Shown here in pieces: positions 44,249 through 61,654 of a stretch of DNA of 64,000 nucleotides. The DNA is taken from the NCBI GenBank assembly GCA_006386115.1, contig VFIW01000004.1, positions 1,144,164 to 1,208,163 of the forward strand, given 5' to 3'. A program made the translations under genes and the position numbers. The first letter of the stretch is position 1. Each line of letters starts with the position of its first letter. Source of the stretch: Globisporangium splendens (taxonomy: Eukaryota; Oomycota; Peronosporomycetes; Pythiales; Pythiaceae). The notes beneath the pieces were generated by a model. The model worked only from the letters and a program-made list of their open reading frames with translations, was not told the DNA's origin and ran no database searches.

Positions 44249-44710
44249 ATGACTGCCGAGTCGTCGGCAAACCTACAGACTCAACCTCTAGCCCCTGCAT
44301 CAGCCACAGGCTCACAGGGAGCGCCAGCAGATCTGACGATCATCACCGAGTCCTATCGCTGCCAGTACCCGAGCAAGCGCTGCACGAACGAACGTTCGAT
44401 CAAGCGCGATGGCGACCTCCACAAGTTGTGCGAATGGCATCGTTCAAAGGCGAATCGGAACCAGCGGAAACTCGAGCAAAAGAAAAAGCTTGAGGCCAGA
44501 GTGAACAGAGGGATTTCTGGGAGATCGCCGAGAGTGAGGAATCGACGGCAACGGACGTCGTCAGCGAACAGCACTGCATCTCTCTCGGTGAACGAAGATG
44601 GAGATGAGTTTGCGGACGAGAATGCGACCTGGGAATTCCTGGAGGAGCTTGACGACCAAGACCTGCACGCGCTTGAATGCCTGGTGGACGCATCGAGCAT
44701 CAGTTTGTGA
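44249..44710 (+). CDS. Zinc-knuckle family member 1 (C-x6-C-x15-C-x2-H protein)
   Basis: The first of about eleven related small genes in this region; I know no function for the family. The 153-residue protein begins with a Ser/Thr/Ala-rich stretch, then ITESYRCQYPSKRCTNERS followed by KRDGDLHKLCEWH: three Cys and one His in the pattern C-x6-C-x15-C-x2-H, as in small treble-clef or knuckle zinc sites. The next 30 residues are strongly basic (RSKANRNQRKLEQKKKLEA). The C-terminus is acidic with FLEELDDQDLHALECLVDA, the family's tail motif. The first member is on the + strand, with member 2; the others are on the minus strand. Single exon; the start is the only ATG upstream of the knuckle in this frame. 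Confidence 0.7.
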   Translation: MTAESSANLQTQPLAPASATGSQGAPADLTIITESYRCQYPSKRCTNERSIKRDGDLHKLCEWHRSKANRNQRKLEQKKKLEARVNRGISGRSPRVRNRRQRTSSANSTASLSVNEDGDEFADENATWEFLEELDDQDLHALECLVDASSISL

Positions 44711-45426
44711 AGTCCCTAAATCTGCGAGTAGAAACCCACTCTCGTTCTCTCGATACATAGGAAAACTCGTTACGAGTTGTGCAAATATCATCTACTGAAG
44801 ACATTTTGGGTATTGGATACCAAACGCCAGTTACAAAATACCTACAATAATGCAACCTGCATATCCCACACACTGCATTGCGTCTCTTTCACTAATTAAA
44901 CATGGCTTCAGTTTCCAGCATTGCTCAAACTATACCTATTCGACTACTCGAGTGACCTGGGTACTCGTCGTGGCCTTTTTGTAAGTTGGACCGTTGCAGT
45001 TTCCGTTTGCAGAGTCCATCTGCGACTTCATCCACATGTATCATCTCACGAGAAGCTCGAGAAAGACTGAGTTTCTCGGTCCGACCTGATGCTTCACGCT
45101 CCACGTCTTTTAGTGTCGTGCACATACGAGAGCCACACGCCGTTGGGTTGCTCTCACTTTCGCGAACCCTCAAAAGCAGCGAAATATCCTGAGACACCAA
45201 GTTTGCTCGTGTTATGATTACCCAATCCATTGCCCAATCTATTCCCTGCTCCGTGAACTGGAGAAAACGAACTGCACTACTTCTAGCCGATCCCTTTGTG
45301 CGCGAGAGCTCCAATTGCATGGCATTATTCGGTTGGAGCTCTTGGGCGCAATACCAACGCATCTACGCAACTCCGCAGTCGCTGCACACAGGATCGCAAA
45401 AGCGAATCGAGTCCAGGATAGCCAAA

Positions 45427-45816
45427 ATGTATTCCGCCAGAGAACTAGCAGCCGAAGTCGAGCTCTCGATCATTACAGATTCCTACCGCTGCCAATACAC
45501 AAACACACGCTGCGCAAACGAGCGCGCCGTGAAACGCGACGGTGATCTACACAAACTCTGCGAATTTCATCGCAGCAAAGCGAATCGCAATCAGAAAAAA
45601 CTGGAGCAAAAGCGAAAGCTCGAGGCCAAGTTGAAGCGGGAGGAACTCGAAAATGCTTCTGAAGCGTCTCAGCGAGAAGTCGAGGCACCAACTTCGTTTC
45701 CAGGTTGCATTGATCTGCCTAAAGGCAATGAGACTGCTTACGGCTTGCTGAAAGATCTTGATGATGAAGATTTGCACGCTCTTGCGACTTTGCTCGACGT
45801 CAGTGACAGCTGCTAG
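45427..45816 (+). CDS. Zinc-knuckle family member 2
   Basis: Sister of member 1, 129 residues. The knuckle is SYRCQYTNTRCANERAVK then RDGDLHKLCEFH, so all four putative ligands are kept. The basic block is RSKANRNQKKLEQKRKLEAK and the tail LLKDLDDEDLHALATLLDVS. Members 1 and 2 share LHKLCE(W/F)HRSKANRNQ and form one subgroup. The open frame continues upstream to 45,214, but the knuckle-proximal ATG at 45,427 (MYSARELAAEVELSI) gives the length of its sister. Confidence 0.7.
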   Translation: MYSARELAAEVELSIITDSYRCQYTNTRCANERAVKRDGDLHKLCEFHRSKANRNQKKLEQKRKLEAKLKREELENASEASQREVEAPTSFPGCIDLPKGNETAYGLLKDLDDEDLHALATLLDVSDSC

Positions 45817-46219
45817 CCGAGTCGCGCTGGGAAGCCTACGGATGTTCGCACAGTTGTGGCTGCATTAGAACACTGTAGTCGCCTCCTTTCCTGGTTCACA
45901 CTGCACATATCGTTTAGCCTAGAGGCAAAGCGAAAGAAACGTCCTCACAGAGAGGAAGTACCTGAGAATAGCTACTAGAGATTCAATACCCAAATGATAT
46001 AACAAAAAGTGTGTATTTTCCTGACATATGAAAGCTCAATGTTAATGATTTCGTCTTGATGCTGAGCTTGAGGAGCTCAACTGGTGATCTGCCTTTGGAC
46101 CTCGTGACACTCACTAGTATTGTGCAAGAATCTCCCTGTGGATCTTACGAGATTTTTGAAGCAAGTATCTACCTTTGGATCTCGCGACGCTTTTGATGCA
46201 GCAAGGCACAGCTCATGAG
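45817..46219. other. Spacer between family members 2 and 3
   Basis: No gene or repeat recognised. Confidence 0.35.
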
Positions 46220-46651
46220 CTATTCCATCGCGCTGTCGACAGAGAGGATTGCAGCCAGCACCCGGAGATCGTCTTCGTCCAGATCGAGACCGAGCAGCAA
46301 GTCCACCGGCTGCTAGTATGTATCGAATTGCGCAGCGTACGCGTCTGAGACCCCGTACTGCTGGTCTAGCTGCACCATGTACGAACCGAGAGATTGTTGC
46401 TCCTGCTGGATTTGCACATGTCGTCGTCATCCCTCTAGCTTGCGCTGATTGAGGTTCGCTCGTGATCGGCGCTCTTCATAGAAGCGATGCAGCTCGCCGT
46501 AACGCTTGACCACTCGTGGCTTATCGCATCGCTTGCTTGGGCAGCAGCATCTCTCATCTGGGTCATCACTTCGCTCTTTAATTGCTTTGGTGACGCTGAA
46601 GTAGTTCTGCGCGGCGTGTGTAGATGGAGCAGGCGCAATATACGCGTTCAT
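46220..46651 (-). pseudogene. Zinc-knuckle family member 3, broken
   Basis: The 5' part is well preserved: HAAQNYFSVTKAIKERSDD, then RCCCPSKRCDKPRVVKRYG. The third Cys and the His of the knuckle are lost (LHRFYEERR where paralogues have LHRFCxxHR). The frame stops right after NLNQRKLEG. In another frame a recognisable remainder follows (QQEQQSLGSYMVQLDQQYG), is cut by TAG near 46,316, and ends with the tail motif LGLDLDEDDLRVLAAILSVD (stop 46,220-46,222). One frameshift, one nonsense codon and ligand loss together show a dead copy. Confidence 0.7.
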
Positions 46652-46829
46652 GGTTATCCGTCCTTATGGAGTTGACGTGGTGGCTGCGTGGTGGTAAGTT
46701 GACAAATGCAGCCAAACAGAAACGCTCCAAGCGAAGGAGATTGGGTGAAGACCACGACAGCCTCACACATCAGCGCTCCCTACAACTGCATAAATGTGTC
46801 GACGAACGTGGGCATGCGATGGAAATGAG

Positions 46830-47510
46830 GAATATCCGGACCAGAGTGAGTCCCTGAGACGTGAGATTTATGAGGTGTGCCCATTCGCCCACTGTATCCA
46901 CTCGTGATATTTCCAAGTATTTGATGCGGTGTTTCCTCCCTGGCATCTAATGCGTGGCAAACAAGAGCTGAACCCAGAAGTAAAGCTCGGTGTTTTGCTT
47001 TACAGTGTGACACAAAATCCACACCCGACAACCCGACACAAAAGAAGACAATTCAACAACCGTTGTGTCTCCAACCAGCATAACTTGTAACGCAAAAATA
47101 GAAATCACTTTGTGAGGCAGTACCATTTCTGCGGCATGAGCTGTTAACGTCGACTTCGTTCGGTCTGAAAAAGTGATAGCGGCGAACCATTTGCGGCTGT
47201 TCCTGTCGCAGCCACCAAACACCCAAAACTCCGCATAGCGCTCTCCGCGTCCGTACTTCGCTTTCTTTGCGAGGGACGTTTCGTCTATCTCCACCACATG
47301 ATCAGGACCCCCACCTAGCAAATAGAAATTAACGACACAAAAATTAGCTTCATCCTCACACGCGCCGAGTAAAACAACGTACCTTCACGTCTATGGTGAG
47401 TAGCTCTTTCGAGCAGTACCCACGACAAATGCCAAGCCATTCGGTAGCAGCTCTAGGGCTGACCTTCACGTACTGGACAACCTAAGTCACAGACTCGCCG
47501 ACGACAAAGT
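46830..47510 (-). mobile_element. Merlin/ISXO2-type transposase fragment
   Basis: Minus-strand exon 46,947-47,321 reads GPDHVVEIDETSLAKKAKYG, FWVFGGCDRNSRKWFAA and SDRTKSTL, the start of the ISXO2-like DDE domain (VEIDET..GKRKY.RGR..E.WVFGG). Upstream (about 47,385-47,500, minus) SPRAATEWLAFCRGYCS looks like the preceding helical region, separated by an intron-like gap and interrupted by a stop. The rest of the DDE core after VLPHKVISIF is not recognisable, so the element is decayed. I did not find terminal inverted repeats. Confidence 0.6.
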
Positions 47511-47587
47511 AGAATGGGAACATTACAAGCCTCGCAAGAGGTGGTTGCTACGCAGTAGGCTGCAAGAAGCTAGTTGTGTATCGCTGC

Positions 47588-47992
47588 TCAACTCTCGTCA
47601 TCGGCATCAATCGACAAGATCGATGCCAAAACGCGAAGATCCTCGTCATCTAGGTCCAATTGGGATGGATGCTCGGTCGGAGGCTCGTGCGCAGGAACAC
47701 CAAACTTCTCGTTCAATTGCTGCAAATACGCCTCCATCGACAGCTGCTCGCGCATTTGCTGCTCCTGACGACGGCGCTCGCGTTTTCGCTGATTCTGGTT
47801 GGCTTGATGGCGGTGGTGCTCGCAGAAGCGGTGGAGATCGCCTGTGCGCTTCACGGCGCGTGGATTCTCGCATCGCTTGCTGGGATATCCGCATCTTGGA
47901 TCTTTGTTTCTGGCTTCGAGTTTGTCAATGATGGCCAAGTACTCGCGGACCGCTTCGGTGCTTGTAGTTTGGTTGATGTTCAACGAGTTCAT
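47588..47992 (-). CDS. Zinc-knuckle family member 4
   Basis: A 134-residue intact member: EAVREYLAIIDKLEARNKD, knuckle RCGYPSKRCENPRAVK then RTGDLHRFCEHH, basic block RHQANQNQRKRERRRQEQQ, a Gln/Glu helical linker (MEAYLQQLNEKFGVP) and tail QLDLDDEDLRVLASILSID. All four Cys/His ligands are present. The frame is open upstream to 48,343 and a longer start (MNHVYPKMVDV) is possible, but ATG 47,992 matches the N-terminal position of the paralogues. Confidence 0.72.
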   Translation of the reverse strand: MNSLNINQTTSTEAVREYLAIIDKLEARNKDPRCGYPSKRCENPRAVKRTGDLHRFCEHHRHQANQNQRKRERRRQEQQMREQLSMEAYLQQLNEKFGVPAHEPPTEHPSQLDLDDEDLRVLASILSIDADDES

Positions 47993-49193
47993 TCTGACGG
48001 CTAGGTGCTTGTGTGGGTGGTTTGAGGCAAGATTAGTAATGTCGACGGCTGTTGCAGCGTCACGCGCTGCACTTTGAGTTGGAGAGACGTCGACCATCTT
48101 TGGGTACACATGATTCATTGCACGCAACGCTCTAGCAAAAGCAAAGCCTCTTTGCTTCCGAAATGCGGGCCACCTACTTGTCAGACACGCATATAGAGTC
48201 TTAAAGCAGGTATACCATTGGCGCGCTGCATGGGTGTATGTCCGATGATCGCTGTCACATGGGTTGATGTGGCTGCAACAACGTCGATATTTTGAGGATA
48301 CTGTATGCGTCTGATGAATACAGAAATGCGGCATGCAATACACGCCACAAGTTTTGTACCTAAACCATTATGGGCAAAGCAGATCACTGGTGCTTTTACT
48401 CTTGGGTACTACTTGCTGCTAACTGACGCAGCTGATATCCTGTTGGACGTTTCCACTTGATTTGCCTGCATCCAATATGCCCATACAAACACTAAGTCTA
48501 GGTGTCTATTTGTCTCTGTGAAAACAAGTAGGCTGCACTTTAGTGCTCTCATATCTAGAGAAATTGATCTTTTCCACTTGGTTTCCTGTTGTTTAGTAGG
48601 AGGTCTTGAATCAAGATGACACCAGGACCAAAGCAAGCATCATGCATTGCAGCAAAACTCGTGATTTGACAAAATGAAAAAGTAGACAAAAAGTACATCA
48701 CAAGAGAATAAATGAGAGGTAGCAGCAGTTTGACTCAGACGGAAATTATACCTCTTTCAAATCGATGGCAACCCGTTGATCTCTTTTGAAGGTCATTAGA
48801 TATTGGCACTCAGCATCTGTCCAAGTGGTAGAGCAATTGTGTCCAAAAACGGTAGCTCCAATTGTCGGATCTGAAGATGCACGACGAGCAGTAACTCACG
48901 CGGACATTCTCTCGTTTGCATCGTACGCGTACGAGAAAAGTAGGGATGCATGGCAACAATGTGCGCATGCTTTAGTACTCTCGGAGCGCACCAGTTCTCT
49001 CCAGAAGCGTGTGCATTTTACTGTTATCTTTTTGCAATTGCGCGCATATTCAAAACTCATTTTCACAGGAAATCAGCGAAAAAGAAACCATTTGTGGTGA
49101 ATTTAAATATCGGCATGGAAGTCGCAACAGCACGTGCCTTTATATGTTCGTGCGATGGGGGGTCATTTATCTCCATTTTTGTTCTTGGCGCGT
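47993..49193. other. Intergenic region within the array
   Basis: No supported gene. The upstream in-frame ORF of member 4 covers the first 350 bp. The remainder has short ORFs only. Confidence 0.35.
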
Positions 49194-49577
49194 TCACATC
49201 GGGTCGTCTCGGTCCTCGACACAGAGTATTGCTGCGAGCACTCGAAGGTCGTCGTCACTCAGGCCGAGTCGTGGCAAGCACTCTGTTGGCTGTACTTGTG
49301 AGAGCGACTCATGGCTCGGGGACTGCTGCTGGGATTCCTGTCGCAGTAACGAGTACTGCTGGCTGGAGCTGCAATTCTTCGCCTCAAGTTGAAGCTTCTG
49401 TGCCTGTTTAATGAGCATCGGGTCCGTTTGTGTTTGTTGGCGATCTTTCGACGCGTTTGCGGTCAAGCCGGCACGCTGTGACTCTCCTGGGCTCGCTTGG
49501 ATGACGCATGCAGTGCCGAAATACTGCTGGATCGCCTGCATACGCGACAACTGAAGCGTGTGGAAGTTGTTACTCAT
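49194..49577 (-). CDS. Zinc-knuckle family member 5, knuckle-less variant
   Basis: A 127-residue ORF that keeps both end motifs of the family but not the middle. The N-terminus RMQAIQQYFGTACVIQASPG matches the QQYFxxAxxIQ block, and the C-terminus LPRLGLSDDDLRVLAAILCV matches the acidic tail. Between them is a Gln/Ser-rich stretch (QAQKLQLEAKNCSSSQQYSL) with no C-x6-C or LHxxCxxH. The frame is intact, so this could be a functional variant. Start ATG 49,577; the frame is open back to 49,724. Confidence 0.55.
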   Translation of the reverse strand: MSNNFHTLQLSRMQAIQQYFGTACVIQASPGESQRAGLTANASKDRQQTQTDPMLIKQAQKLQLEAKNCSSSQQYSLLRQESQQQSPSHESLSQVQPTECLPRLGLSDDDLRVLAAILCVEDRDDPM

Positions 49578-51200
49578 GGTGGCTTGGATCCCGTCAGATG
49601 CAGATGCTGGAGGGAAATGCCGCGACGATGTGGACGCGAGGCAGCAAATTGAGTTGTGAACGCATTTGGAACGTTCTTGTTGGGGGAGGATTACGACATC
49701 TCGTGTGCATCGTGTCCTACGCACACACCGTCGTCACGGTTTTAAAAAGGTATGTATCCACATGCTCCTGTTCAGCAAGCCGCATAAAATGCGGATGAAA
49801 CGCCGCGTGGGTTGAACTTGGTAATCATTTCTGTCCCACGTGTTTCTGATCCAAAATTCGACATACTGGGTGCAACATCTGTGATTTTGGGTATATTTGC
49901 CGATTCGACCCTTTTAGGTACAATAGGGGATCGACTGTATCATGAAAACCCTTTTGGAGTTTGATGTGACAGAGGTTTTTGAATGCTTGCGCTGTGATCC
50001 AGAAAAGGGATACATATCTTGATATTCTCGGCTCCAAATCAGGACCAAATTGACCCAGAATGGACCACCTGCATTCATTCTCGCAGAGAAAGTGGGTATA
50101 TGAGGTACCCCATGTGACGTGGTAAACTTACACTAGATAGAGCGACTCGACAGCACATGCTTGCTGTTGTAGGTTTCAGCCACCAGACTGAAGGTCTGGC
50201 GTTGTGTGCCCTTCTGGCAGAGAAGAAGCTCAGCCAAAGTTTTAGGCTATCTGCCTCCTGCAAAGTGCGTGCAAGGTTCGGCGTTGCATGCAGATGAATA
50301 AAGGACGAATCCTCTCAACTGTGGATTAGTTGAAGTCACGATGGAGAGGATTAGTCCTCTGGCGAGCTGTCTCGCTAATCTGAATGTCGATCGACTGAAC
50401 TTGGGACGTGCGGCCAAAACCAGTTTAACGATGAGAGCAACCGCCAAACTGCAAGTGAATCGGTAGCAGTTGTAGAATGATGGTGCAGCTCGCCGATTAT
50501 CGCCTGCGTTTGCCTTTTTTTTTTTTTTTCCAGTGATAATCAACCCGTAGCTGTCAGCACTGCATGTGCAGCAGCCACGTTTACTGCGCTTGACGGACGA
50601 CTGCTTTTCGCAATCAGAGCAAATTTAGAAATGAGCACATCGTTCGTGGTCCCAGCCAGTCTGGAGCTAGTCGTGCAGCAGAGGATGAGCGAGATTATGA
50701 AGTGAGAATCCAGGAACCCAAATTACTGAACCGCTGAGCCCAAATCAGCGACCCATGGAGATGGGTCTGGTTTTCTGCGCTGGATTTTTTTGAAATGACC
50801 AATTGAAATGATAAATGACAAAGCAGGTACAATATTCTGAACCATCAAAAGCACGAGTGCTCTGGAGTCGATTTGCCACATCGCAATGCATTTCACGCCC
50901 TATTGGCGCATCATCTAAACCTCCTGGTTCCTTTTGGCATCGTTTGTCCAGTCTACTCCATCATCGTAACGAAATGGATCCAAGTAACCACGCTTGTGTG
51001 ATCAAAAGGAAGCTGTCTGCAAATAGTTGTCCTTGCTGCATAATTGACGAGACGAGAAGATTGCTTCGAGTGGAGACATGCTTTTTGTATGTTCGTTTAG
51101 GTTTATCAATACAGCATGGATCGCAGACGAATAGATAGTAGCTTTTGTGATCTGAGTGTCAGAGCTGAGTCTTCACATGGTCACTCTTCAAGCACCAAGT
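49578..51200. other. Intergenic region
   Basis: No gene recognised. A run of about 17 T lies at 50,513-50,529. The 3' part ends at the target-site duplication of a LINE insertion. Confidence 0.35.
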
Positions 51201-51214
51201 AGATCGTGCTAATG
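51201..51214. repeat. Target-site duplication, 5' copy (LINE copy 1)
   Basis: AGATCGTGCTAATG here is repeated exactly at 52,206-52,219 on the other side of the element. Confidence 0.85.
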
Positions 51215-52205
51215 TATGAGCGCGTCGCTCATACAAGCCATTTGGTGTGCGCATCTGCGACGCATGGATTCGGATCCAATCGAATCGGCTGCTGAGATGG
51301 CGATCATGATGACCAGATTAGAGGCAGGAATGCGAAACCTCACACGACTCGCTGAAGTGCAAGCTGGAGACTCTGACGGTCACACGGTTGCAGCAGTTCT
51401 CAAGGCATATGTCGACTGCTTTCTCAGCCAAACCGACACCATCCTCTTGACTCCAAGTGATACTCGCGGCGTTTACCTGTTGTTTTTCGATGGTGGATCA
51501 CGCGGCAATCCAGGACCAGGAGGGACTGGATCCATTATCGTGCGTGTCCATGAAAACTCGCACACAGCCAGTTTAATTTGGGTCGCCAGCATGGCATATA
51601 GCAGGAAGGACACGACCAACAACTTTGCCGAGTACTGGGGTCTCATACACGGACTCCGAGAAGCCTAACACAGTCACTTCGAGCCGTTGTACGTGATTGG
51701 AGACAGTGCACTGATTATCTCCCAACAGAGAATGCATCGGTCCCCTCGACAGCACCGATTGGCACGTTTATACCAGACAAGCCGACGACTCGCGGATTGC
51801 ATCGACATCCGAGGATGGTACCATCACTACCGTGCCTTCAACAAGATGACGGACTCAGCCGCCAACCTAGCCATGGACACCAGAACCTCAACGCAGGTCA
51901 ACTTCCCAACTCAAAGAGCTGCTTTCAACAATCTCACCCAGGATCTTGACAACGACGTCATGCATTGGCTTATGCTAAGTTCGGAAGACCCAAGGTCATT
52001 GGACAACACAAGGCAGCCTCACATAGGACCAAGAGAACATGCCATCCCGGTCAAAGATTATTTAGCATTCAGAAGTGATCTAGTGCAATCCGCGCTATAG
52101 ACACATTTACACTCCTGTATGAAATTCGCAATGAAGATTAGGTAGGAGAATGGCTATTGTAGGTCACGAAGATGAACCTAAATATACCTCACCTTATAAA
52201 GATAA
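51215..52205 (+). mobile_element. 5'-truncated LINE, copy 1 (RNase H end)
   Basis: The 991-bp insert starts inside the ORF2 C-terminal region and includes an RNase H domain: VYLLFFDGGSRGNPGPGGTG with the first catalytic Asp, NNFAEYWGLIHGLREA with the Glu, and then YVIGDSALIISQQ with the next Asp. A TAA at 51,666-51,668 replaces the Gln of copy 2, so this copy is dead. The ORF ends DLVQSAL at 52,100. The 3' UTR ends in CTTATAAAGATAA. The exact 14-bp duplication at both ends, with a truncated 5' end, is typical of target-primed reverse transcription. Confidence 0.85.
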
Positions 52206-52219
52206 AGATCGTGCTAATG
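52206..52219. repeat. Target-site duplication, 3' copy (LINE copy 1)
   Basis: Exact repeat of the 14 bases at 51,201-51,214. Confidence 0.85.
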
Positions 52220-52396
52220 GCAATGCAGGACCGTACCTCATATGAGAGAGTTTCAGCGAAGTAACACAAGTGTGCCCCATACTTCGAATAAATACGACAT
52301 CGTATTGTTCGCTTTATCCGTACTCAATGATTTTCAGCTATCGACACAAATCAGCAAGTTGAGTTACTGCAACTGAGATCCACGCTGCCATTGCGA

Positions 52397-52757
52397 TCAC
52401 TGTCCAAGCATGTTGTCGCTATTGCTGTCCTCTTTCTTGAAAAGTAGCACCTCGAGTACCCGCAGATCTTCTTCACTAAAATACTCGACTTCCGATTTCT
52501 CAAAGTAGCAATCAGACTGGAACTCAAGTGTGTCTTCATCTTGATGGTGTTGTACTAAGCACTCGTTCAGGTGGCGTAAATAATAGTTCGGCGTGATTGT
52601 GCCATGCTGGTGTTGCTCCGTGAGTTTTTGCTGTCGCTTCTCTCTTCGGGTGCGCGCTGGTGGAGATTCGCTTTCACGCGATGGTACTTGCAGAACCGGT
52701 ACAGTTCGCCATTGCGACCTCGAGCACGCAGACCTTGACAGTTTTTGCTCGGAGCTC
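52397..52757 (-). pseudogene. Zinc-knuckle family member 6b, 5'-truncated and joined to 6a
   Basis: Read on the minus strand from 52,757: PSKNCQGLRARGRNGELYRF followed by CKYHRVKANLHQR is the second half of a knuckle (C-x15-C-x2-H kept, first Cys missing because the 5' end is cut). After a frame change come RRTRREKRQQKLTEQ-like basic sequence and the tail EYFSEEDLRVLEVLLFKKED, with a stop at 52,397-52,399. This is a divergent member not otherwise present here. It was fused end-on to 6a and is out of frame with it. Confidence 0.6.
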
Positions 52758-53072
52758 CTCCTTCACGAACAGATCATACTGCTCACTCTGTTGTAGCATG
52801 CACTCGTCGATGGGAAGCTGCTCCACCATCTGATCCGCCAGTCGTCGTCGCTGGAGCGCGCGCTGGTTCTTGTTTGCCTTGGCGCGATGGAATTGACAGA
52901 AGCGATGCAGGTTCCCGTCACGCTTGACGACGCGCGGGTTCATGCACGGCTTACTTGGGTAGCAGCACGTCGCCTGTGGGTTGGTGCTTTTCGTTTGGAT
53001 TTCATGCGCGATGCTGAAGTACTGTTGAGTGGCTTGGGGGGTGCTGGGGTATTGGTAGACGTACGGGTTCAT
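52674..53072 (-). pseudogene. Zinc-knuckle family member 6a, A-type gene with chimeric 3' end
   Basis: The first 96 residues are the A-type protein (QATQQYFSIAHEIQTKSTNP, CCYPSKPCMNPRVVKRDGNL, HRFCQFHRAKANKNQRALQ) and match the copies at 54,781 and 56,933. Near 52,800 the sequence switches to the B-type linker (LQQSEQYDLFVKEE), and at about 52,757 it runs into member 6b in a wrong frame, giving the tail KVCVLEVAMANCTGSAS. The acidic family tail is absent. The ORF may still be expressed as a 132-residue protein with an intact knuckle. Confidence 0.6.
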
Positions 53073-53395
53073 GTTTGGGTTTGGTGGCTCGTTGGCTGGA
53101 CCTGTTAGGCTGTGTTGCTTTGGTGTTCAAAGTGCAAATTGAGTTGTGAGGATGCAAAGCTTGGCTTTAGGTGCGGTGTCCGCGTTTGGATCTGCAACGG
53201 AAAGCATAAGAAGAGATTTCGCTGTTACATGATGTCAGATTGATATCCTATGATGTATCAAGTCTGACGAAGTGGGGTGCTTGTGTGTGTCCTTTGTGAT
53301 CTCAATTCGAGAATTCCAGGACCCTGTCTGAGATTTGACTCGCACCTCGATCTGAGCGCTCCGTATACCCCAAAATAACGGGAATAACAGACAGT

Positions 53396-53441
53396 CAAGT
53401 GGGTCAAATAGAATTGTTTGTACCCGTGTTTGACCCACTTG
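53396..53441. repeat. Hairpin module within the tandem unit
   Basis: CAAGTGGGTCAAA and TTTGACCCACTTG form a perfect 13-bp inverted repeat with a 20-base loop. It recurs at 55,548-55,593. At 57,700-57,745 the left arm carries one T-to-G change. A near-palindrome (TCAGATTGATA..TATCAAGTCTGA, 53,237-53,270) lies about 130 bp before it. Confidence 0.8.
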
Positions 53442-53761
53442 GCTGATGTCTCATCTGTCATCACAATGGCTCCCTAGAACGCAGATGAACGCAAGCCTTC
53501 GTCGCCAAATGGCTCAGTATTATATGAAGAGCATCTCTTGGACACTCAACAGCGTGAAGCAAGAGGGCACACTCTAACCAGTAGCCTGTCATGCTTGTCA
53601 AATTACGCTTTCGTGGATATGTCATTTCACTGTGCATTATTTTAGGTTATCTATCTTCTAACGTGTTCGTGTGAGGCTGGTGTTGTGCAACTGGAAGTGT
53701 AAATACATTTCTAGTTGTCGTCTAATATGGTACAATTGCATGGAGGTAGCTTTTCTCGCAA

Positions 53762-54355
53762 TCAGACCTCTTTGTCCACAGAGAGAACCGCAGCGTGGAC
53801 GCGCAGATCGTCTTCGTCCAGATCGAGACGCATCAGCAGGTCAGAAGGCGGCAGCTCTTCGCACTGCTGCTCCTCTTTCACGAACAGATCATACTGCTCG
53901 CTCAGCTGCCGCATGTATTCGTCAATCAGGAGCAGCTCCACCACCTCGGTCACTTTGCGACGACTCTCCAGGTTGCGCTGGTTCGAGTTGGCCTTGACGC
54001 GGTGGGACTCGCAGAAGCGGTGGAGCTGGCTGTTGCGTTTCAACGCGCGCGGGTTCTCGCGCCACTTTCTCGGGTAGCAGCGTCGTGCTCGAGGGTCGGT
54101 GCTTTTTTCTTGGATCGTGTGCGCGACCTCAAAGTGCTGTTGGGCAGCCTGGACTGTTGGTCGTTGGTGGATGTAGGAACAGCTGCTCACAGTTATGGTA
54201 GTAGTCGTTGTTGGACTGGGGACCTGTGTGTGAGGCAGGTTTGAGTATTGAAATACTGAGTTCGTGTGGCGCGTTGTGCTTGGTCCACCCTCACGATGAA
54301 TCACGCTCAAAACGTACGTCACGCAAAGGTGATTGCATTTGTAGAGACATATCAT
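53762..54355 (-). CDS. Zinc-knuckle family member 7 (B-type), degenerate knuckle
   Basis: The family core is clear: VQAAQQHFEVAHTIQEKSTD, then RCYPRKWRENPRALKRNSQL and HRFCESHRVKANSNQRNLES, a linker with LSEQYDLFVKEEQQCEELPP, and the tail MRLDLDEDDLRVHAAVLSVD. The second knuckle Cys is absent (KWREN where A-type has KPCMN), so a normal four-ligand zinc site cannot form. The ORF starts at ATG 54,355, giving 197 residues; the Thr-rich first 60 residues have no counterpart in A-type members and may be an artefact of start choice. An identical copy is at 55,914-56,507. Confidence 0.65.
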   Translation of the reverse strand: MICLYKCNHLCVTYVLSVIHREGGPSTTRHTNSVFQYSNLPHTQVPSPTTTTTITVSSCSYIHQRPTVQAAQQHFEVAHTIQEKSTDPRARRCYPRKWRENPRALKRNSQLHRFCESHRVKANSNQRNLESRRKVTEVVELLLIDEYMRQLSEQYDLFVKEEQQCEELPPSDLLMRLDLDEDDLRVHAAVLSVDKEV

Positions 54356-54473
54356 ATCGTCATGCTAGCGAGAAGAACTACGAAATTACTTAAAGGGAGA
54401 CAGAGTGAGCTGAATGTCCTCAGAAACTCGTGATAGCAAGAAAAAGCTGACTGTGCTTCCACGTTGATTCACC

Positions 54474-54573
54474 GATTCACCACAGATTTCGTAATGAAGA
54501 TTAGGTAGGAGAATGGATATTGTAGGTCACGACGATGATCCTCACCTTATAAAGATAAAGATTCACCACAGAT
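54474..54573 (+). mobile_element. 72-bp LINE tail with its target-site duplication
   Basis: 54,488-54,559 matches the last 70-odd bases of the LINE 3' UTR (AATGAAGATTAGGTAGGAGA to CTTATAAAGATAAA). It is flanked by an exact 14-bp duplication, GATTCACCACAGAT, at 54,474-54,487 and 54,560-54,573. This is an extremely 5'-truncated insertion. The same insertion is at 56,626-56,725 because the tandem unit was copied after it. Confidence 0.85.
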
Positions 54574-54780
54574 GACTGATCAACTCATCACTCCTAGGCG
54601 AACGATTACTCGTGTAGATGAAGCGATCTCCTATTTCAATCACAAAGCAGAAACCTCTGTTTGTTTCAGAAGAATCGAGTGGTGCACATGTATCCATTTT
54701 TCATTATTTTGATACAGTCCAATTCATTTATCGGGAGTAGCTTTCTCGCGGTATACGTGGCAAGCTTCTCGTTTCTACTT

Positions 54781-55224
54781 TCACAGCGTGACCTCTTCGT
54801 CACCCTCATCCACCGACAGCACAGCGGCCAACACGCGGAGATCGTCTTCGTCCAGATCGAGTCGCACCAGCAAATCCGACGGTGGCAGCTGATCTTCATA
54901 ACCTTGCTCCTGCTGAATCAGCAACTCGTACTGCTCGTTCAGCTGCTGCATGTACTCGTCGATGGGAAGCTGCTCCACCATCTGATCCGCCAGTCGTCGT
55001 CGCTGGAGCGCGCGCTGGTTCTTATTTGCCTTGGCGCGATGGAATTGACAGAAGCGATGCAGGTTCCCGTCACGCTTGACGACGCGCGGGTTCATGCACG
55101 GCTTACTTGGGTAGCAGCACGTCGCCTGTGGGTTGGTGCTTTTCGTTTGGATTTCATGCGCGATGCTGAAGTACTGTTGAGTGGCTTGGGGGGTGCTGGG
55201 GTATTGGTAGACGTACGGGTTCAT
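54781..55224 (-). CDS. Zinc-knuckle family member 8 (A-type, intact)
   Basis: A 147-residue protein, the best example of the family plan. N-motif QATQQYFSIAHEIQTKSTNP; knuckle CCYPSKPCMNPRVVKRDGNL then HRFCQFH; basic block RAKANKNQRALQRRRLADQM; Gln/Glu-rich helical linker (IDEYMQQLNEQYELLIQQEQ); tail LVRLDLDEDDLRVLAAVLSV. The acidic tail has alternating hydrophobic residues, like an amphipathic activation or docking helix. No signal peptide or membrane segment. The gene spans the junction of tandem units 1 and 2. Confidence 0.75.
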   Translation of the reverse strand: MNPYVYQYPSTPQATQQYFSIAHEIQTKSTNPQATCCYPSKPCMNPRVVKRDGNLHRFCQFHRAKANKNQRALQRRRLADQMVEQLPIDEYMQQLNEQYELLIQQEQGYEDQLPPSDLLVRLDLDEDDLRVLAAVLSVDEGDEEVTL

Positions 55225-55913
55225 GTTTGGGTTTGGTGGCTCGTTGGCTGGACCTGTTAGGCTGTGTTGCTTTGGTGTTCAAAGTGCAAATTGAGTTGTG
55301 AGGATGCAAAGCTTGGCTTTAGGTGCGGTGTCCGCGTTTGGATCTGCAACGGAAAGCATAAGAAGAGATTTCGCTGTTACATGATGTCAGATTGATATCC
55401 TATGATGTATCAAGTCTGACGAAGTGGGGTGCTTGTGTGTGTCCTTTGTGATCTCAATTCGAGAATTCCAGGACCCTGTCTGAGATTTGACTCGCACCTC
55501 GATCTGAGCGCTCCGTATACCCCAAAATAACGGGAATAACAGACAGTCAAGTGGGTCAAATAGAATTGTTTGTACCCGTGTTTGACCCACTTGGCTGATG
55601 TCTCATCTGTCATCACAATGGCTCCCTAGAACGCAGATGAACGCAAGCCTTCGTCGCCAAATGGCTCAGTATTATATGAAGAGCATCTCTTGGACACTCA
55701 ACAGCGTGAAGCAAGAGGGCACACTCTAACCAGTAGCCTGTCATGCTTGTCAAATTACGCTTTCGTGGATATGTCATTTCACTGTGCATTATTTTAGGTT
55801 ATCTATCTTCTAACGTGTTCGTGTGAGGCTGGTGTTGTGCAACTGGAAGTGTAAATACATTTCTAGTTGTCGTCTAATATGGTACAATTGCATGGAGGTA
55901 GCTTTTCTCGCAA

Positions 55914-56507
55914 TCAGACCTCTTTGTCCACAGAGAGAACCGCAGCGTGGACGCGCAGATCGTCTTCGTCCAGATCGAGACGCATCAGCAGGTCAGAAGG
56001 CGGCAGCTCTTCGCACTGCTGCTCCTCTTTCACGAACAGATCATACTGCTCGCTCAGCTGCCGCATGTATTCGTCAATCAGGAGCAGCTCCACCACCTCG
56101 GTCACTTTGCGACGACTCTCCAGGTTGCGCTGGTTCGAGTTGGCCTTGACGCGGTGGGACTCGCAGAAGCGGTGGAGCTGGCTGTTGCGTTTCAACGCGC
56201 GCGGGTTCTCGCGCCACTTTCTCGGGTAGCAGCGTCGTGCTCGAGGGTCGGTGCTTTTTTCTTGGATCGTGTGCGCGACCTCAAAGTGCTGTTGGGCAGC
56301 CTGGACTGTTGGTCGTTGGTGGATGTAGGAACAGCTGCTCACAGTTATGGTAGTAGTCGTTGTTGGACTGGGGACCTGTGTGTGAGGCAGGTTTGAGTAT
56401 TGAAATACTGAGTTCGTGTGGCGCGTTGTGCTTGGTCCACCCTCACGATGAATCACGCTCAAAACGTACGTCACGCAAAGGTGATTGCATTTGTAGAGAC
56501 ATATCAT
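55914..56507 (-). CDS. Zinc-knuckle family member 9 (B-type copy)
   Basis: Its 197-residue product is identical to member 7, including the missing second knuckle Cys. It is a product of the tandem duplication. Confidence 0.65.
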   Translation of the reverse strand: MICLYKCNHLCVTYVLSVIHREGGPSTTRHTNSVFQYSNLPHTQVPSPTTTTTITVSSCSYIHQRPTVQAAQQHFEVAHTIQEKSTDPRARRCYPRKWRENPRALKRNSQLHRFCESHRVKANSNQRNLESRRKVTEVVELLLIDEYMRQLSEQYDLFVKEEQQCEELPPSDLLMRLDLDEDDLRVHAAVLSVDKEV

Positions 56508-56625
56508 ATCGTCATGCTAGCGAGAAGAACTACGAAATTACTTAAAGGGAGACAGAGTGAGCTGAATGTCCTCAGAAACTCGTGATAGCAAGAAAAAGCT
56601 GACTGTGCTTCCACGTTGATTCACC

Positions 56626-56725
56626 GATTCACCACAGATTTCGTAATGAAGATTAGGTAGGAGAATGGATATTGTAGGTCACGACGATGATCCTCACCTT
56701 ATAAAGATAAAGATTCACCACAGAT
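56626..56725 (+). mobile_element. Duplicate of the 72-bp LINE tail with target-site duplication
   Basis: Same sequence as 54,474-54,573, displaced by 2,152 bp. It therefore predates the tandem duplication and is not an independent insertion. Confidence 0.85.
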
Positions 56726-56932
56726 GACTGATCAACTCATCACTCCTAGGCGAACGATTACTCGTGTAGATGAAGCGATCTCCTATTTCAATCACAAAGC
56801 AGAAACCTCTGTTTGTTTCAGAAGAATCGAGTGGTGCACATGTATCCATTTTTCATTATTTTGATACAGTCCAATTCATTTATCGGGAGTAGCTTTCTCG
56901 CGGTATACGTGGCAAGCTTCTCGTTTCTACTT

Positions 56933-57376
56933 TCACAGCGTGACCTCTTCGTCACCCTCATCCACCGACAGCACAGCGGCCAACACGCGGAGATCGTCTT
57001 CGTCCAGATCGAGTCGCACCAGCAAATCCGACGGTGGCAGCTGATCTTCATAACCTTGCTCCTGCTGAATCAGCAACTCGTACTGCTCGTTCAGCTGCTG
57101 CATGTACTCGTCGATGGGAAGCTGCTCCACCATCTGATCCGCCAGTCGTCGTCGCTGGAGCGCGCGCTGGTTCTTATTTGCCTTGGCGCGATGGAATTGA
57201 CAGAAGCGATGCAGGTTCCCGTCACGCTTGACGACGCGCGGGTTCATGCACGGCTTACTTGGGTAGCAGCACGTCGCCTGTGGGTTGGTGCTTTTCGTTT
57301 GGATTTCATGCGCGATGCTGAAGTACTGTTGAGTGGCTTGGGGGGTGCTGGGGTATTGGTAGACGTACGGGTTCAT
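56933..57376 (-). CDS. Zinc-knuckle family member 10 (A-type copy)
   Basis: Its 147-residue product is identical to member 8. It spans the junction of units 2 and 3. Confidence 0.75.
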   Translation of the reverse strand: MNPYVYQYPSTPQATQQYFSIAHEIQTKSTNPQATCCYPSKPCMNPRVVKRDGNLHRFCQFHRAKANKNQRALQRRRLADQMVEQLPIDEYMQQLNEQYELLIQQEQGYEDQLPPSDLLVRLDLDEDDLRVLAAVLSVDEGDEEVTL

Positions 57377-57981
57377 GTTTGGGTTTGGTGGCTCGTTGGC
57401 TGGACCTGTTAGGCTGTGTTGCTTTGGTGTTCAAAGTGCAAATTGAGTTGTGAGGATGCAAAGCTTGGCTTTAGGTGCGGTGTCCGCGTTTGGATCTGCA
57501 ACGGAAAGCATAAGAAGAGATTTCGCTGTTACATGATGTCAGATTGATATCCTATGATGTATCAAGTCTGACGAAGTGGGGTGCTTGTGTGTGTCCTTTG
57601 TGATCTCAATTCGAGAATTCCAGGACCCTGTCTGAGATTTGACTCGCACCTCGATCTGAGCGCTCCGTATACCCCAAAATAACGGGAATAACAGACAGTC
57701 AAGTGGGGCAAATAGAATTGTTTGTACCCGTGTTTGACCCACTTGGCTGATGTCTCATCTGTCATCACAATGGCTCCCTAGAACGCAGATGAACGCAAGC
57801 CTTCGTCGCCAAATGGCTCAGTATTATATGAAGAGCATCTCTTGGACACTCAACAGCGTGAAGCAAGAGGGCACACTCTAACCAGTAGCCTGTCATGCTT
57901 GTCAAATTACGCTTTCGTGGATATGTCATTTCACTGTGCATTATTTTAGGTTATCTATCTTCTAACGTGTTCGTGTGAGGC
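57106..57981. repeat. 2,152-bp tandem repeat, partial unit 3
   Basis: The first 876 bp of a third unit. Homology stops abruptly after GTGTGAGGC at 57,981 (matching 53,677 in unit 1), before the B-type gene. One visible substitution lies in the hairpin arm (GTGGGGCAA for GTGGGTCAA). Confidence 0.9.
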
Positions 57982-58780
57982 ACGTGGCGCCATCCATGAA
58001 TGCATCCTTCCTTGGAAGTGTAACACACCCCTTGAATAGATGAATAAAGTACACCTTCGTGCTAGGCATGTGTTGGTGCGTCTTGCTTGTGCAGATTGTT
58101 CATTCCTTCATTGTTCGACCGCATGACTCGAGAACTCAGTTTGGTCGGTCGTAAGAATGTCATAAATCCCAGTTTCTGGGTTTTCTAATCGTATCTGCTG
58201 TTCGTATATTCGGGAGGAGTGTGCAATCTTCAGACTTGATATATCATAGGATATCAATCTGACATCGTATAACAGCAAAGCTCTTTCTTCTTCTGTGTAT
58301 CAGCAGAACTGGAATCCTAGAGAATTCCAGGAGGATATCCAGTTTCGGAGGCTGTAAAAGCACCCAATTTGAACCTTTCATACGCCCAAAATAACAGAAA
58401 TGAGTGGGTCAAATCGACATTTGGCCCACTTGGCCACCCGCCCCTTCTATGTGCACGTAGCTCCTCCAGGATATTTGGAATCCTGTGAGCACGACGCGGT
58501 CTAAATCAACAGTTCAGTGCGAAAGCGCATCAGTGCCACGTTGGCCACGTGACGCAGGGGCGAACTGTGCTCCGACAATGCAGTGCGCGCCAGACTCGGC
58601 AATGTGGCTGAGCAAACGATCTCTGAACTCTTCTCGGCCTCCTCCCACTCGGGAACCAAACGACACCAACGCCATCAAAAGGTGACATGGACTGGGGATC
58701 TTCGAATCATGTGTGCGATAAACATGTGAACGAATGCGTGTGTAAATGATATACTGTGGAGATTACACGCAATCGTGACC
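57982..58780. other. Spacer with a diverged hairpin module
   Basis: 58,233-58,277 is an inverted, diverged match to 53,225-53,270 (GATATATCATAGGATATCAA). 58,380-58,440 resembles the CCAAAATAAC..GTGGGTCAAA part of the module. No gene seen. Confidence 0.5.
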
Positions 58781-58782
58781 TC

Positions 58783-60560
58783 TTTTATCTTTATAAGGTG
58801 AGGTATATTTAGGTTCATCTTCGTGACCTACAATATACATTCTCCTACCTAATCTTCATTGCGAATTTCATACAGGAGTGTAAATGTGTCTACAGCGCGG
58901 ATTGCAATAGATCACTTCTGAATGCTAAATAATCTTTGACCAGGATGGCATTTTCTCTTGGTCCTATGTGAGGCTGCCTTGTGTTGTCCAATGACCTTGG
59001 GTCTTCCGAACTTCGCATAAGCCAATGTATGACGTCGTTGTCTAGATCCTGGGTGAGATTGTTGAAAGCAGCTCGATGAGTTGGGAAGTGAACCTGCGTT
59101 GAGATTCTGGTGTCCATGGCTAGGTTGGCGGCTGAGTCCGCCATCTTGTTGAAGGCACGGTAGTGATGGTACCGTCCTCGGATGTCGATGCAATCCGCGA
59201 GTCGTCGACTTGTCTGGTATAAACGTGCCAATCGGTGCTGTCGAGGGGACCGATGCATTCTCTGTTGGGAGATAATGAGTGCACTGTCTCCAATCACGTA
59301 CAACGGCTCGAAGTGACTGCGTTGGGCTTCTCGGAGTCCGTGTATGAGACCCCAGTACTCGGCAAAGTTGTTGGTCGTGTCCTTCCTGCTATATGCCATG
59401 GTGGCGACCCAAATTAAACTGGCTGTGTGCGAGTCCTTATGGACACGCACGATAATGGATCCAGTCCCTCCTGGTCCTGGATTGCCGCGTTATCCACCAT
59501 CGAAAAACAACAGGTAAACGCCGCGAGTATCATTTGGAGTCAAGGGGATGGTGTCGGTTTGGCTGAGAAAGCAGTCGACATATGCCTTGAGAACTGCCGC
59601 AACCGTGTGACCGTCCGAGTCTCCAGCTTGCGCTTCAGCGAGTCGTGTGAGGTTTCGCATTCCTGCCTCTAATCTGGTCATCATGATCGTCATCTCAGCA
59701 GTCGATTCGATTGGATCCGAATCCATGCGTCGCAGATGCGCACACCAAATGGCTTGTATGAGCGACGCGCTCATATATCGCCACAGCGTGTGTGCGACGG
59801 GATAGAGGTGATCTTGGAGATGTTCATTGGAGCACTTGTGTCCGATAATGTGTCTCTTGATCGTGGTCCATGCACGCCTTGGAATATCTGGTAGATCCAG
59901 ACTGAAGATCCAGATTGCGGGGTCGTGACCAGGAGTGATTCCGATCTTCGCCCATAGCGCATAAAGTAGTTCCACACCAGTTTGGCTTTCGGACACTCCC
60001 AGAATAGATGTTGAACAGAAGATTGGACAACTTGGGAACATTCGGGATTCGAGTAGGATAGATCAGCTTTCTCATAGTTCCACATGGAGAGTCGGTTGGC
60101 TTTCAGCCGGAGAAGAGTCTGAGCCGTGTAAGCAGTAATCCCTGGGATGCTGTGTAATTCGCTCCATTGGATTAATTGCAGTCCTGGCCACAGAGATCCT
60201 GCTGTTTGGACAGCTTTGTTGACTGCTGCATCTCGAGTATCTTTGCCAATTTGTGTCCTCGCTGCTGCAACTTGCTGCCGATAGAAAGATCTGGTCGTAT
60301 TGTATCGTCCGTTGCCGCCCCATAGTTGCACGATTCTTGTGAAACGCGGATGTGCATGGAACGACACCTTCTGCCTGTTCAAGTCTCTTGTTGCCATGAT
60401 GTCACAGTCCATTGCGGAGTGAACTGTATGCGTAGCTTTGACTAGGGTCGTGTCGACGTGGGTCAGAGTTGCTTCACTGGTGTGCAGATGCCATTCGTGG
60501 TTATAATGACGTTGCCCGTTGTACAGCCGAAGCACATATAGCAGATATATTATCATCTGT
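58783..60560 (-). mobile_element. 5'-truncated LINE, copy 2 (RT zinc-binding region plus RNase H)
   Basis: A longer copy of the same LINE on the minus strand. It reads LWGGNGRYNTTRSFYRQQ, LRLKANRLSMWNYEKADLSY and SSVQHLFWECPKAKLVWNYF (the zinc-binding region downstream of the reverse transcriptase), then AIWIFSLDLPDIPRRAW, and RNase H from VYLLFFDGG to SDLLQSAL. Lesions: frame changes near 59,950 and 59,790, and TAA within GG*RGNPGPGG near 59,490, where copy 1 has Ser. The reading GLREAQRSHFEP is intact here. The 3' UTR (58,783-58,890) ends in CTTATAAAGATAAAA. The 5' boundary near 60,560 abuts family member 11; I could not identify a target-site duplication. Confidence 0.8.
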
Positions 60561-60566
60561 CGTGAA

Positions 60567-60969
60567 TCATACCGATATGTCAAAGCAAAGCGGATCGAAT
60601 GAGTTGTCAAAGTCGATATCGATGTCATACAGGAACCCTTCTAGGACGCGTGCATCGGCTTCATCGAGACCGAGGGACGAGATCACACAGGCGAACTTGT
60701 CTTGATCGTATGTGGTTTGGAGTTGATGCTTCCATTTGCCGTTTTTGCGCCAGGTTCCGCTGTTTGCGTCTCTCGTCTTGGTGTCTCTGGTTTTCGTTGG
60801 CCCTCTTGCGGTGAGCCACACAAAAGTGATGCAACTCGCTGCTGCGCTTCATGACTCGTGGACTGTTGCAGAATTTACTCGGGCAGCAGCATCTCAAGTC
60901 AGGGTCTTCGCTTCGTTCTTGGACCAAGTGGGCAAGCGTATCGATACGAGTGACCTCAAGGCTTGGCAT
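60567..60969 (-). pseudogene. Zinc-knuckle family member 11, frameshifted
   Basis: N-part: TRIDTLAHLVQERSEDPD, knuckle RCCCPSKFCNSPRVMK then SSELHHFCVAH (all four ligands kept), basic block RKRANENQRHQDERRKQRN. The frame then runs into VRLCDLVPRSR and stops at 60,661, while the natural continuation lies in another frame (WKHQLQTTYDQDKFACVISS, SLGLDEADARVLEGFLYDID), ending at 60,567. So an indel lies around 60,720-60,740. It might be a recent lesion or a base-calling error. The LINE copy 2 adjoins its 3' end. Confidence 0.6.
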
Positions 60970-61654
60970 CTTTGCTTCAGTTAGTGCCAGCAGGGCTGGG
61001 GAGGCTCTTGTTTCTTGAAGACCGTGCCAGAGTGTCGAACTTTGTAGAGCCAGGTAAGTTGGAAAATGGAGCTGTTCGTCGACCTGAGCTAATGCAAAGA
61101 ACTTTTCGTTCCCATTCAGCCGTCATGTAGGTGCATCTCCATTGCCTCAGTATTCATTCCGCGACTAGGTTGATGAGCTGGGCCAGGTCATGCCGTGCAT
61201 CCAGCGGGTCAACTGCGCTCCAGAGGAGTCGCACGCCGACAGCTCTACCTCAGGAAACGTGTATCCGCTCTCATTGTGTGCGCGCAACGAAATAACAATG
61301 ACACGTGCAACGAAATCAATACATGTGGTCTCAGTCTGTGCGTCGCGTTTGTAGAGGTCACACCCAGCAAAATGAAACATAAAGGTTGCTTTTCGTAACT
61401 TTTCAAAACGTTACGTACACTTCAAGTAATTACTATATAGTAGACTGAGTCTGAGTCTAATGGATATTCTGCGTCTGAGTCCTCGTGATGAGACGCACTG
61501 ATAGCAGAAAAAGGGAAACATGCGCCAAAATGCGCCACTTGCCGCCGCATGACTGCGTGGATTGAGAGCGCGTGTTAGAGCAGGAAACAGCACCAACAGC
61601 AAAAGAAGCACATGGAGGTGCTTGCAGTGCAGTCGTCGGGATATAACTGAGAGC
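60970..61654. other. Intergenic region before the coiled-coil gene
   Basis: No firm gene. A 71-residue minus-strand ORF (61,165-61,380) has no recognisable feature. The last 200 bp presumably hold the promoter of the next gene. Confidence 0.35.

Follow-up and report, generated by a model that had tools for sequence, protein, structure and literature searches.

A clustered, oomycete-wide family of small Cys/His-knuckle proteins in Globisporangium splendens and its candidate role in gene regulation

Introduction

What kind of gene family leaves a row of short, unequally preserved open reading frames (ORFs) at the end of an oomycete contig, and what might its products do? The question is raised by a 64,000-nucleotide stretch of the Globisporangium splendens genome, here called the window (C140:1144164-1208163; GenBank VFIW01000004.1), which forms the terminal part of a 1,208,163-base contig in a genome of 53.3 Mb and 195 contigs. 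For G. splendens rgcb-1, the draft in the literature is a hybrid PacBio and Illumina assembly of 53.3 Mb (PMC7163027). Twelve family pieces lie at 44249-61122 of the window, designated members 1, 2, 3, 4, 5, 6a, 6b, 7, 8, 9, 10 and 11. An earlier note on this DNA had described about eleven paralogues at 44249..60969, each with an N-terminal block, a Cys/His knuckle, a basic stretch and an acidic tail. The array is real and correctly placed, although its last member extends further, to 61122, and the count becomes twelve when damaged pieces are included. These proteins belong to a real and large family, conserved among oomycetes, that no Pfam profile matches and, in the three members tried, no NCBIfam profile either. 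They are probably nuclear DNA-binding regulators with an activation-like tail, a reading in which we infer zinc binding, DNA binding, nuclear location and activation.

A conserved knuckle in an oomycete-wide family

The protein of one member matches 67 genome sites at E <= 0.001; three different family queries yielded 67, 65 and 65 sites, and a fourth, more distant query yielded 49. The pooled list, consisting of the 65 sites from the second query and three seen only with the first, holds 68 sites, of which 17 lie on contigs aligning as the other haplotype (C161, C139, C171, C169 and C106). With these presumed alleles subtracted, the family comprises about 51 loci, damaged ones counted. The array is thus one cluster of an oomycete-wide family and not a local novelty. 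A larger cluster exists at C118:231946-310925 (14 members in about 80 kb versus 12 in the window), C23 carries five family loci, and the remaining contigs carry one to three each.

Three protein searches gathered 166 different family proteins, of which at least eight come from the G. splendens genome. Every match with a named organism came from an oomycete, namely Globisporangium, Pythium, Phytophthora, Nothophytophthora, downy mildews, Lagenidium, Albugo and Aphanomyces (Saprolegniales). This restriction describes named matches only, and the search, which requires shared 5-residue words and in two of its three runs scored only the top word-sharing candidates, may miss distant diatom or brown-algal relatives. 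When IMG/VR was scanned with a profile of the knuckle, 58 sequences matched the pattern but none was confirmed. No publication on the family was found by domain label, locus tag or broader topic, subscription literature lying outside the scope of that search. The relatives P0059, P0093 and P0156 bear the names RAN GTPase-activating protein 1, 12-oxophytodienoate reductase and Secreted protein F2; P0088 is a family member fused in its database record to a PF00332 domain; these names and the fusion look like annotation errors. One protein, P0100 of [Pythium] brassicae (389 amino acids), carries two knuckles and is the sole double among the 166.

The pattern C-x6-C-x15-C-x2-H is present in 163 of the 166 proteins, and the three exceptions (P0104, P0108 and P0158) have lost ligands and group in the tree with members 7 and 3. 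When the 166 proteins are shuffled, the spacing turns up in 3 of 33,200 trials, a comparison that, with a real set gathered by similarity, shows only that the motif is not compositional. Eleven positions (C1, Y3, C8, R12, K15, H21, C24, H27, R28, N32 and Q35) are invariant in 116 distinct blocks; the blocks were chosen by the four-ligand pattern from the similarity-gathered set, so that the ligands are invariant by construction and the invariance of the other positions is somewhat inflated. A within-genome alignment of 40 pattern-picked knuckles leaves C, Y, C, K, C, H, R and Q invariant. Conservation of the four Cys/His outside G. splendens, the point on which the earlier note had staked its proposal, was found: the ligands are kept in other oomycetes. 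Within the window, ORFs were taken stop to stop and scanned for the motif; the exact spacing occurs in members 1, 2, 4, 6a, 8, 10 and 11, precisely the seven for which it had been called invariant, and five further pieces (3, 5, 6b, 7 and 9) were recovered by genome searches.

The regions that flank the knuckle are also recurrent. Net charge over the knuckle plus 25 residues is above zero in 163 of 163 proteins (median +9), while that of the last 50 residues, with a median of -10, is below zero in 148 of 163 and above it in 10. Two tail patterns, both composed after the tails had been inspected, were counted across the 166 proteins: the acidic-leucine motif occurs in 108 (100 shuffles: mean 8.0, maximum 16) and its second form in 95 (mean 5.4, maximum 11). 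By these counts the basic region and acidic amphipathic tail first described in the array recur well outside the window. The QQYFxxAxxIQ block, a predicted helix at residues 12-30 of member 8, had been presented as common to all members. It holds for members 3, 4, 5, 6a and 7-10 and near relatives but not for the family at large, and belongs to the clade of members 3-10.

Pfam finds no credible domain in 28 members and, among 25 of the 35 families listed for a further 80, only weak families; NCBIfam gives no credible knuckle match in the three members tried. The knuckle therefore still lacks a domain name in these collections, although UniProt labels some relatives. Among the names listed, at least four are WRC (P0032, P0036, P0039 and P0047), at least four SBP-type (P0137, P0141, P0142 and P0157) and at least one SCA7 (P0092). 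Our guess is that the labels come from another profile set; a Pfam rescan of seven of the nine labelled relatives gave no match and so lends them no support as a known annotated domain.

Predicted structure and proposed mechanism

AlphaFold2 modelled the knuckle alone, from 40 alignment rows, with a predicted local distance difference test score (pLDDT) of 89.4 and a predicted template modelling score (pTM) of 0.63. The predicted knuckle has strands at 17-20 and 26-30 and a helix at 31-56, with C-x2-H at the helix start. By description this fold would be treble-clef-like. The full member 8 protein, P0098, was modelled at pLDDT 78.9 and pTM 0.42; in this model the tail forms short helices that stand apart.

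In the proposed mechanism, Cys-x6-Cys and Cys-x2-His would together hold one zinc ion, which would anchor a beta-hairpin (R-x2-K-R-N-G-x-L-H) where a long basic helix (H-R-x-K-A-N-x-N-Q-R-x-x-x-x-K/R-R/K) begins. Three invariant residues of this helix (R28, N32 and Q35), which fall within a 60-degree arc on a helical wheel, would contact DNA. The acidic leucine-rich motif S-D-L...L-D-x-E/D-D-L-x-x-L-x-x-L-L would form a helix of the activation type on which a coactivator docks. While the family is well supported, its regulator function is suggested by anatomy, expansion into clusters and few secretion-like features. A leucine zipper after the basic helix, considered by eye in member 8, was rejected, as there is no clear heptad and a Pro lies inside. 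It can be proposed more tentatively that the knuckle is an undescribed, oomycete-restricted zinc DNA-binding domain founding one of the largest transcription factor families in oomycetes, with about 51 loci in G. splendens. Paralogues without a knuckle, member 5 for example, might then persist as natural competitors that keep only the partner-binding ends.

Several results weigh against a DNA-binding regulator. Pfam scans of members match no DNA-binding family, and Foldseek and VIA-align found no confident solved-structure match for either model; with neither profile nor fold, DNA binding stands without homology support. The weak structure matches include 60S assembly intermediates and LIM. 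One-sided conservation of the basic helix is not significant over the two ranges compared (permutation p 0.07 and 0.19), and 5 of the 22 tails displayed do not have the motif (P0163 and the deep-branching P0049, P0089, P0096 and P0097). In the 12-pair allele comparison described below, omegas outside members 1, 2 and 8 are higher, at 0.31-1.14 in the eight other pairs with a value, member 4 (0.74) being set aside. Constraint is thus not uniform over the family, since values elsewhere in the genome span 0.31-0.92 and the knuckle of C29/C139 a has five replacements versus one silent change. Finally, a basic zinc finger with an acidic tail would equally suit an RNA- or protein-binding role.

This last point underlies the proposal of an RNA or ribonucleoprotein finger, in which RNA, for example during the assembly of ribosomes or the control of mRNA, would be bound by the basic helix and a partner protein by the tail. 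The helix is very basic, and a weak structure match was obtained to 8v83_u of a 60S assembly intermediate (31% identity, 39 columns, E 6.4 and 6.2), a chain that we take to be an eL24-type protein. In addition, the best PDB sequence match of the knuckle profile is ribosomal L36 (E 0.048). However, the ribosomal match scores are all at chance level, and some 51 loci with divergent flanks resemble regulators more than core RNA machinery. We regard this explanation as unlikely.

Tests for WRC and SBP membership

A rival reading takes the family for an offshoot, whether by descent or by acquisition, of the WRC or SBP (Zn1) zinc domains known from plants. The UniProt names point in this direction, as does the resemblance of SBP H-K-V-C-E-V-H-A-K-A to the family stretch L-H-K-L-C-E-F-H-R-x-K-A-N. 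Yet WRC (PF08879) matches none of 28 members at E <= 10 and is absent among the 25 of 35 families listed for 80 members. Pfam finds no WRC in the WRC-named P0036 and P0047 but recognises a WRC control sequence at 2.7e-24, and a genome search for WRC at E 10 gave three weak matches, none at a family locus. The WRC spacing occurs in none of the 166 proteins, whose ligands are either spaced as above or lost. SBP (PF03110) is likewise unlisted for the 28 members and absent among the 25 of 35 families listed for the 80, and Pfam does not match it in the four SBP-type-labelled relatives P0137, P0141, P0142 and P0157. Its second zinc site (Zn2) is absent, no Cys being among the four commonest residues over 25 positions after C-x2-H in the 116 blocks. 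Profile comparison with hhalign gave a probability of 0.8% with a single WRC sequence and 6.8%, over 15 columns, with four SBP rows. Given these low values, membership in WRC or SBP is not claimed, and with the different ligand spacing such an origin is quite unlikely. For zf-C3Hc3H (PF13891), the Pfam scans of members list no match either, with the same scope of 25 of 35 families for the 80, and a genome search at E 10 gave none.

Architecture and haplotypes of the array

The features of the array, in window positions, are as follows.

44249..44710, forward: member 1, intact; knuckle CQYPSKRC...LHKLCEWH, basic helix and tail LDDQDLHALECLV
45427..45816, forward: member 2, knuckle intact; first Met (45427) close to the knuckle, a putative start
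46223..46651, reverse: member 3, pseudogene; two in-frame stops, ligands lost too
47588..48118, reverse: member 4, knuckle intact; several Met, start putative
49194..49577, reverse: member 5, knuckle-less ORF; N-block QQYF and tail LSDDDLRVLAAIL kept
51214..52206, forward: 3' end (RNase H) of a non-LTR-type (long terminal repeat) element; 13-bp target duplication, absent from C161
52394..53072, reverse: members 6a and 6b, annotated as the single gene FI667_g1407
52774..57981, no strand assigned: tandem block, 2.4 units of 2,152 bases; C161 has one unit
53762..54364, reverse: member 7, degraded knuckle; second Cys replaced, all four ligands on the other haplotype
54781..55224, reverse: member 8, intact; 147-amino-acid product P0098, used for the structure model
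55914..56516, reverse: member 9, tandem copy of member 7; second Cys lost likewise
56933..57376, reverse: member 10, tandem copy of member 8
58782..60537, reverse: second, longer inverted copy of the non-LTR-type element; not aligned in C161
60567..61122, reverse: member 11; four ligands present, tail in a different frame

The window and its other haplotype, contig C161, run colinear for about 58 kb, and the main pieces are mostly 92-99% identical. Gene order is 8-7-8-7-8 in the 2,152-base units of the window and a single 8-7 in C161. The window tandem copies are 99.67% identical over 3,056 bases, and their slight differences, at the level of the assembly, speak against simple duplicate assembly. 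Members 7 and 8 and members 9 and 10 are not independent evidence, because this duplication leaves them near-identical. The two inverted non-LTR-type copies share 97% identity over 995 bases, and the one at 51214-52206 would be a recent heterozygous insertion, since it has a target duplication and is absent on the other haplotype. Both haplotypes are kept as separate contigs in five cases (C139/C29, C171/C141, C169/C74, C106/C135 and C161/C140), so gene counts from the draft assembly are inflated.

Several members are composite or damaged. Member 6a is a truncated copy of member 8 with an intact knuckle, joined to 6b, a fragment of a decayed member with tail SEEDLRVLEVLLF. Member 3 on the other haplotype has one in-frame stop, at a different place from the two in the window. 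The frame shift of the tail in member 11 reflects either an intron or decay. The ORF of member 5 is open and indel-free on both haplotypes and is possibly that of a knuckle-less paralogue that has been retained.

Selection and evolutionary history

Omega was estimated for 12 allele pairs and 4 paralogue pairs, then also for the allele pairs of members 5 and 11. The values are indicative only. The alleles of a pair are separated by 2 to 57 codon changes; in the six pairs outside the window, ORFs were taken roughly stop to stop and possible non-coding flanks raise omega. Member 1 alleles differ by six silent changes and one replacement (omega 0.05) and member 8 alleles by eight changes, almost all silent (omega 0.04); from these counts members 1 and 8 look constrained. 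Omega is 0.20 for member 2, 0.74 for member 4, 1.14 for member 7, 0.40 for member 11 and 0.27 for the knuckle-less member 5 (seven silent and seven replacement changes). The aligned knuckles of members 1, 2, 4 and 8 show 0, 0, 0 and 1 replacements between alleles. Elsewhere, values are 0.59 and 0.31 for C29/C139, 0.41 for C141/C171 b, 0.92 and 0.74 for C74/C169 and 0.50 for C135/C106, while C141/C171 a has zero codon changes and no omega value.

A tree of 43 rows, in which 19 of 40 inner branches are strongly supported and members 5 and 11 have long branches, groups G. polare 3506 with member 4 (99/99) and 3507 with member 3 (96/61), and places 3508 near members 1 and 2 (94/86) and 3501 among relatives of members 7 and 8. 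These four genes share one 83,171-base contig, and their order matches that of the window provided that locus-tag numbers follow position. The array backbone thus appears to predate the split from G. polare, with an old array carrying a recently multiplied block. Copies would arise by unequal exchange (tandem duplication), after which some would lose the knuckle and decay. The fast birth-and-death evolution earlier ascribed to the whole array is a good description of the 7-8 block and of members 3, 5, 6b, 7, 9 and 11 but not of members 1 and 8 or the old backbone.

Damage to members 3, 5, 6b, 7 and 9 could suggest that the window cluster is mostly decaying gene debris whose function is gone. 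This is very improbable in view of the low omegas of members 1 and 8, though these come from only seven and eight changes, and of a G. ultimum relative of member 8 with 89% identity over 84% of the query. Plant-pathogen effectors commonly lie in fast-changing clusters next to transposons, and one relative bears the name Secreted protein F2, but a secreted or host-directed effector family has the slimmest chance of all, as a crude hydrophobicity test, which is no signal-peptide predictor, found a strongly hydrophobic start in 5 of 166 proteins, an R-x-L-R string occurs at residues 21-100 in 2 of 166, members are conserved in Albugo, Lagenidium and Aphanomyces, and knuckle replacements between alleles of members 1, 2, 4 and 8 are few.

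Significance and comparison with known systems

Oomycete regulators have so far been catalogued through domains already familiar in plants, animals and fungi. The Phytophthora infestans catalogue, in its own account, began with genes annotated as DNA-binding and retained 190 factors in 22 families (PMC11267843); a profile-less family would escape it, and its main text has no mention of WRC, SBP, C3H, CCCH or PITG_14938. The bZIP and C2H2 clusters that it describes offer a parallel to the present array, in that regulator families are said there to expand by unequal crossing-over, whereas its 22 families, as presented, have known DNA-binding domains (PMC11267843). If the present family binds DNA, it would add about 51 candidate regulator loci in one species and a testable domain whose range takes in Aphanomyces, Albugo and Phytophthora. 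The cluster, moreover, exemplifies haplotype-specific tandem growth next to constrained neighbours.

Among small zinc modules, the CCHC zinc knuckle of retroviral and cellular proteins (C-x2-C-x4-H-x4-C) places three Cys and one His around one zinc ion, as the family would do. It differs from the family in ligand order and spacing, and the family has a predicted beta-hairpin between its ligand pairs. The zf-C3Hc3H domain of nuclear proteins is alike in being a single small C3H knuckle. In the WRC domain of plant growth-regulating factors, one C3H zinc site ending in C-x2-H is followed by a basic stretch, an arrangement like that of the family, although its consensus spacing is C-x9-C-x10-C-x2-H as opposed to C-x6-C-x15-C-x2-H. 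The Zn1 half of the SBP domain (SPL factors; PDB 1ul4 and 1ul5) shares a Cys3His site and a similar H-x2-C-E-x-H-x-K-A stretch. Its chains have what we take, from the Cys presumed to bind zinc, to be C-x4-C-x16-C-x2-H, unlike the family spacing, and the Zn2 half, a C2HC site, has no counterpart in the family. In the accounts of these domains, WRC in growth-regulating factors is credited with DNA interaction (PMC7380329), and the first SBP zinc site is given as Cys3His (PMC4035897). The oomycete family most likely works like these plant single-zinc regulators, a likeness of operation rather than of demonstrated kinship.

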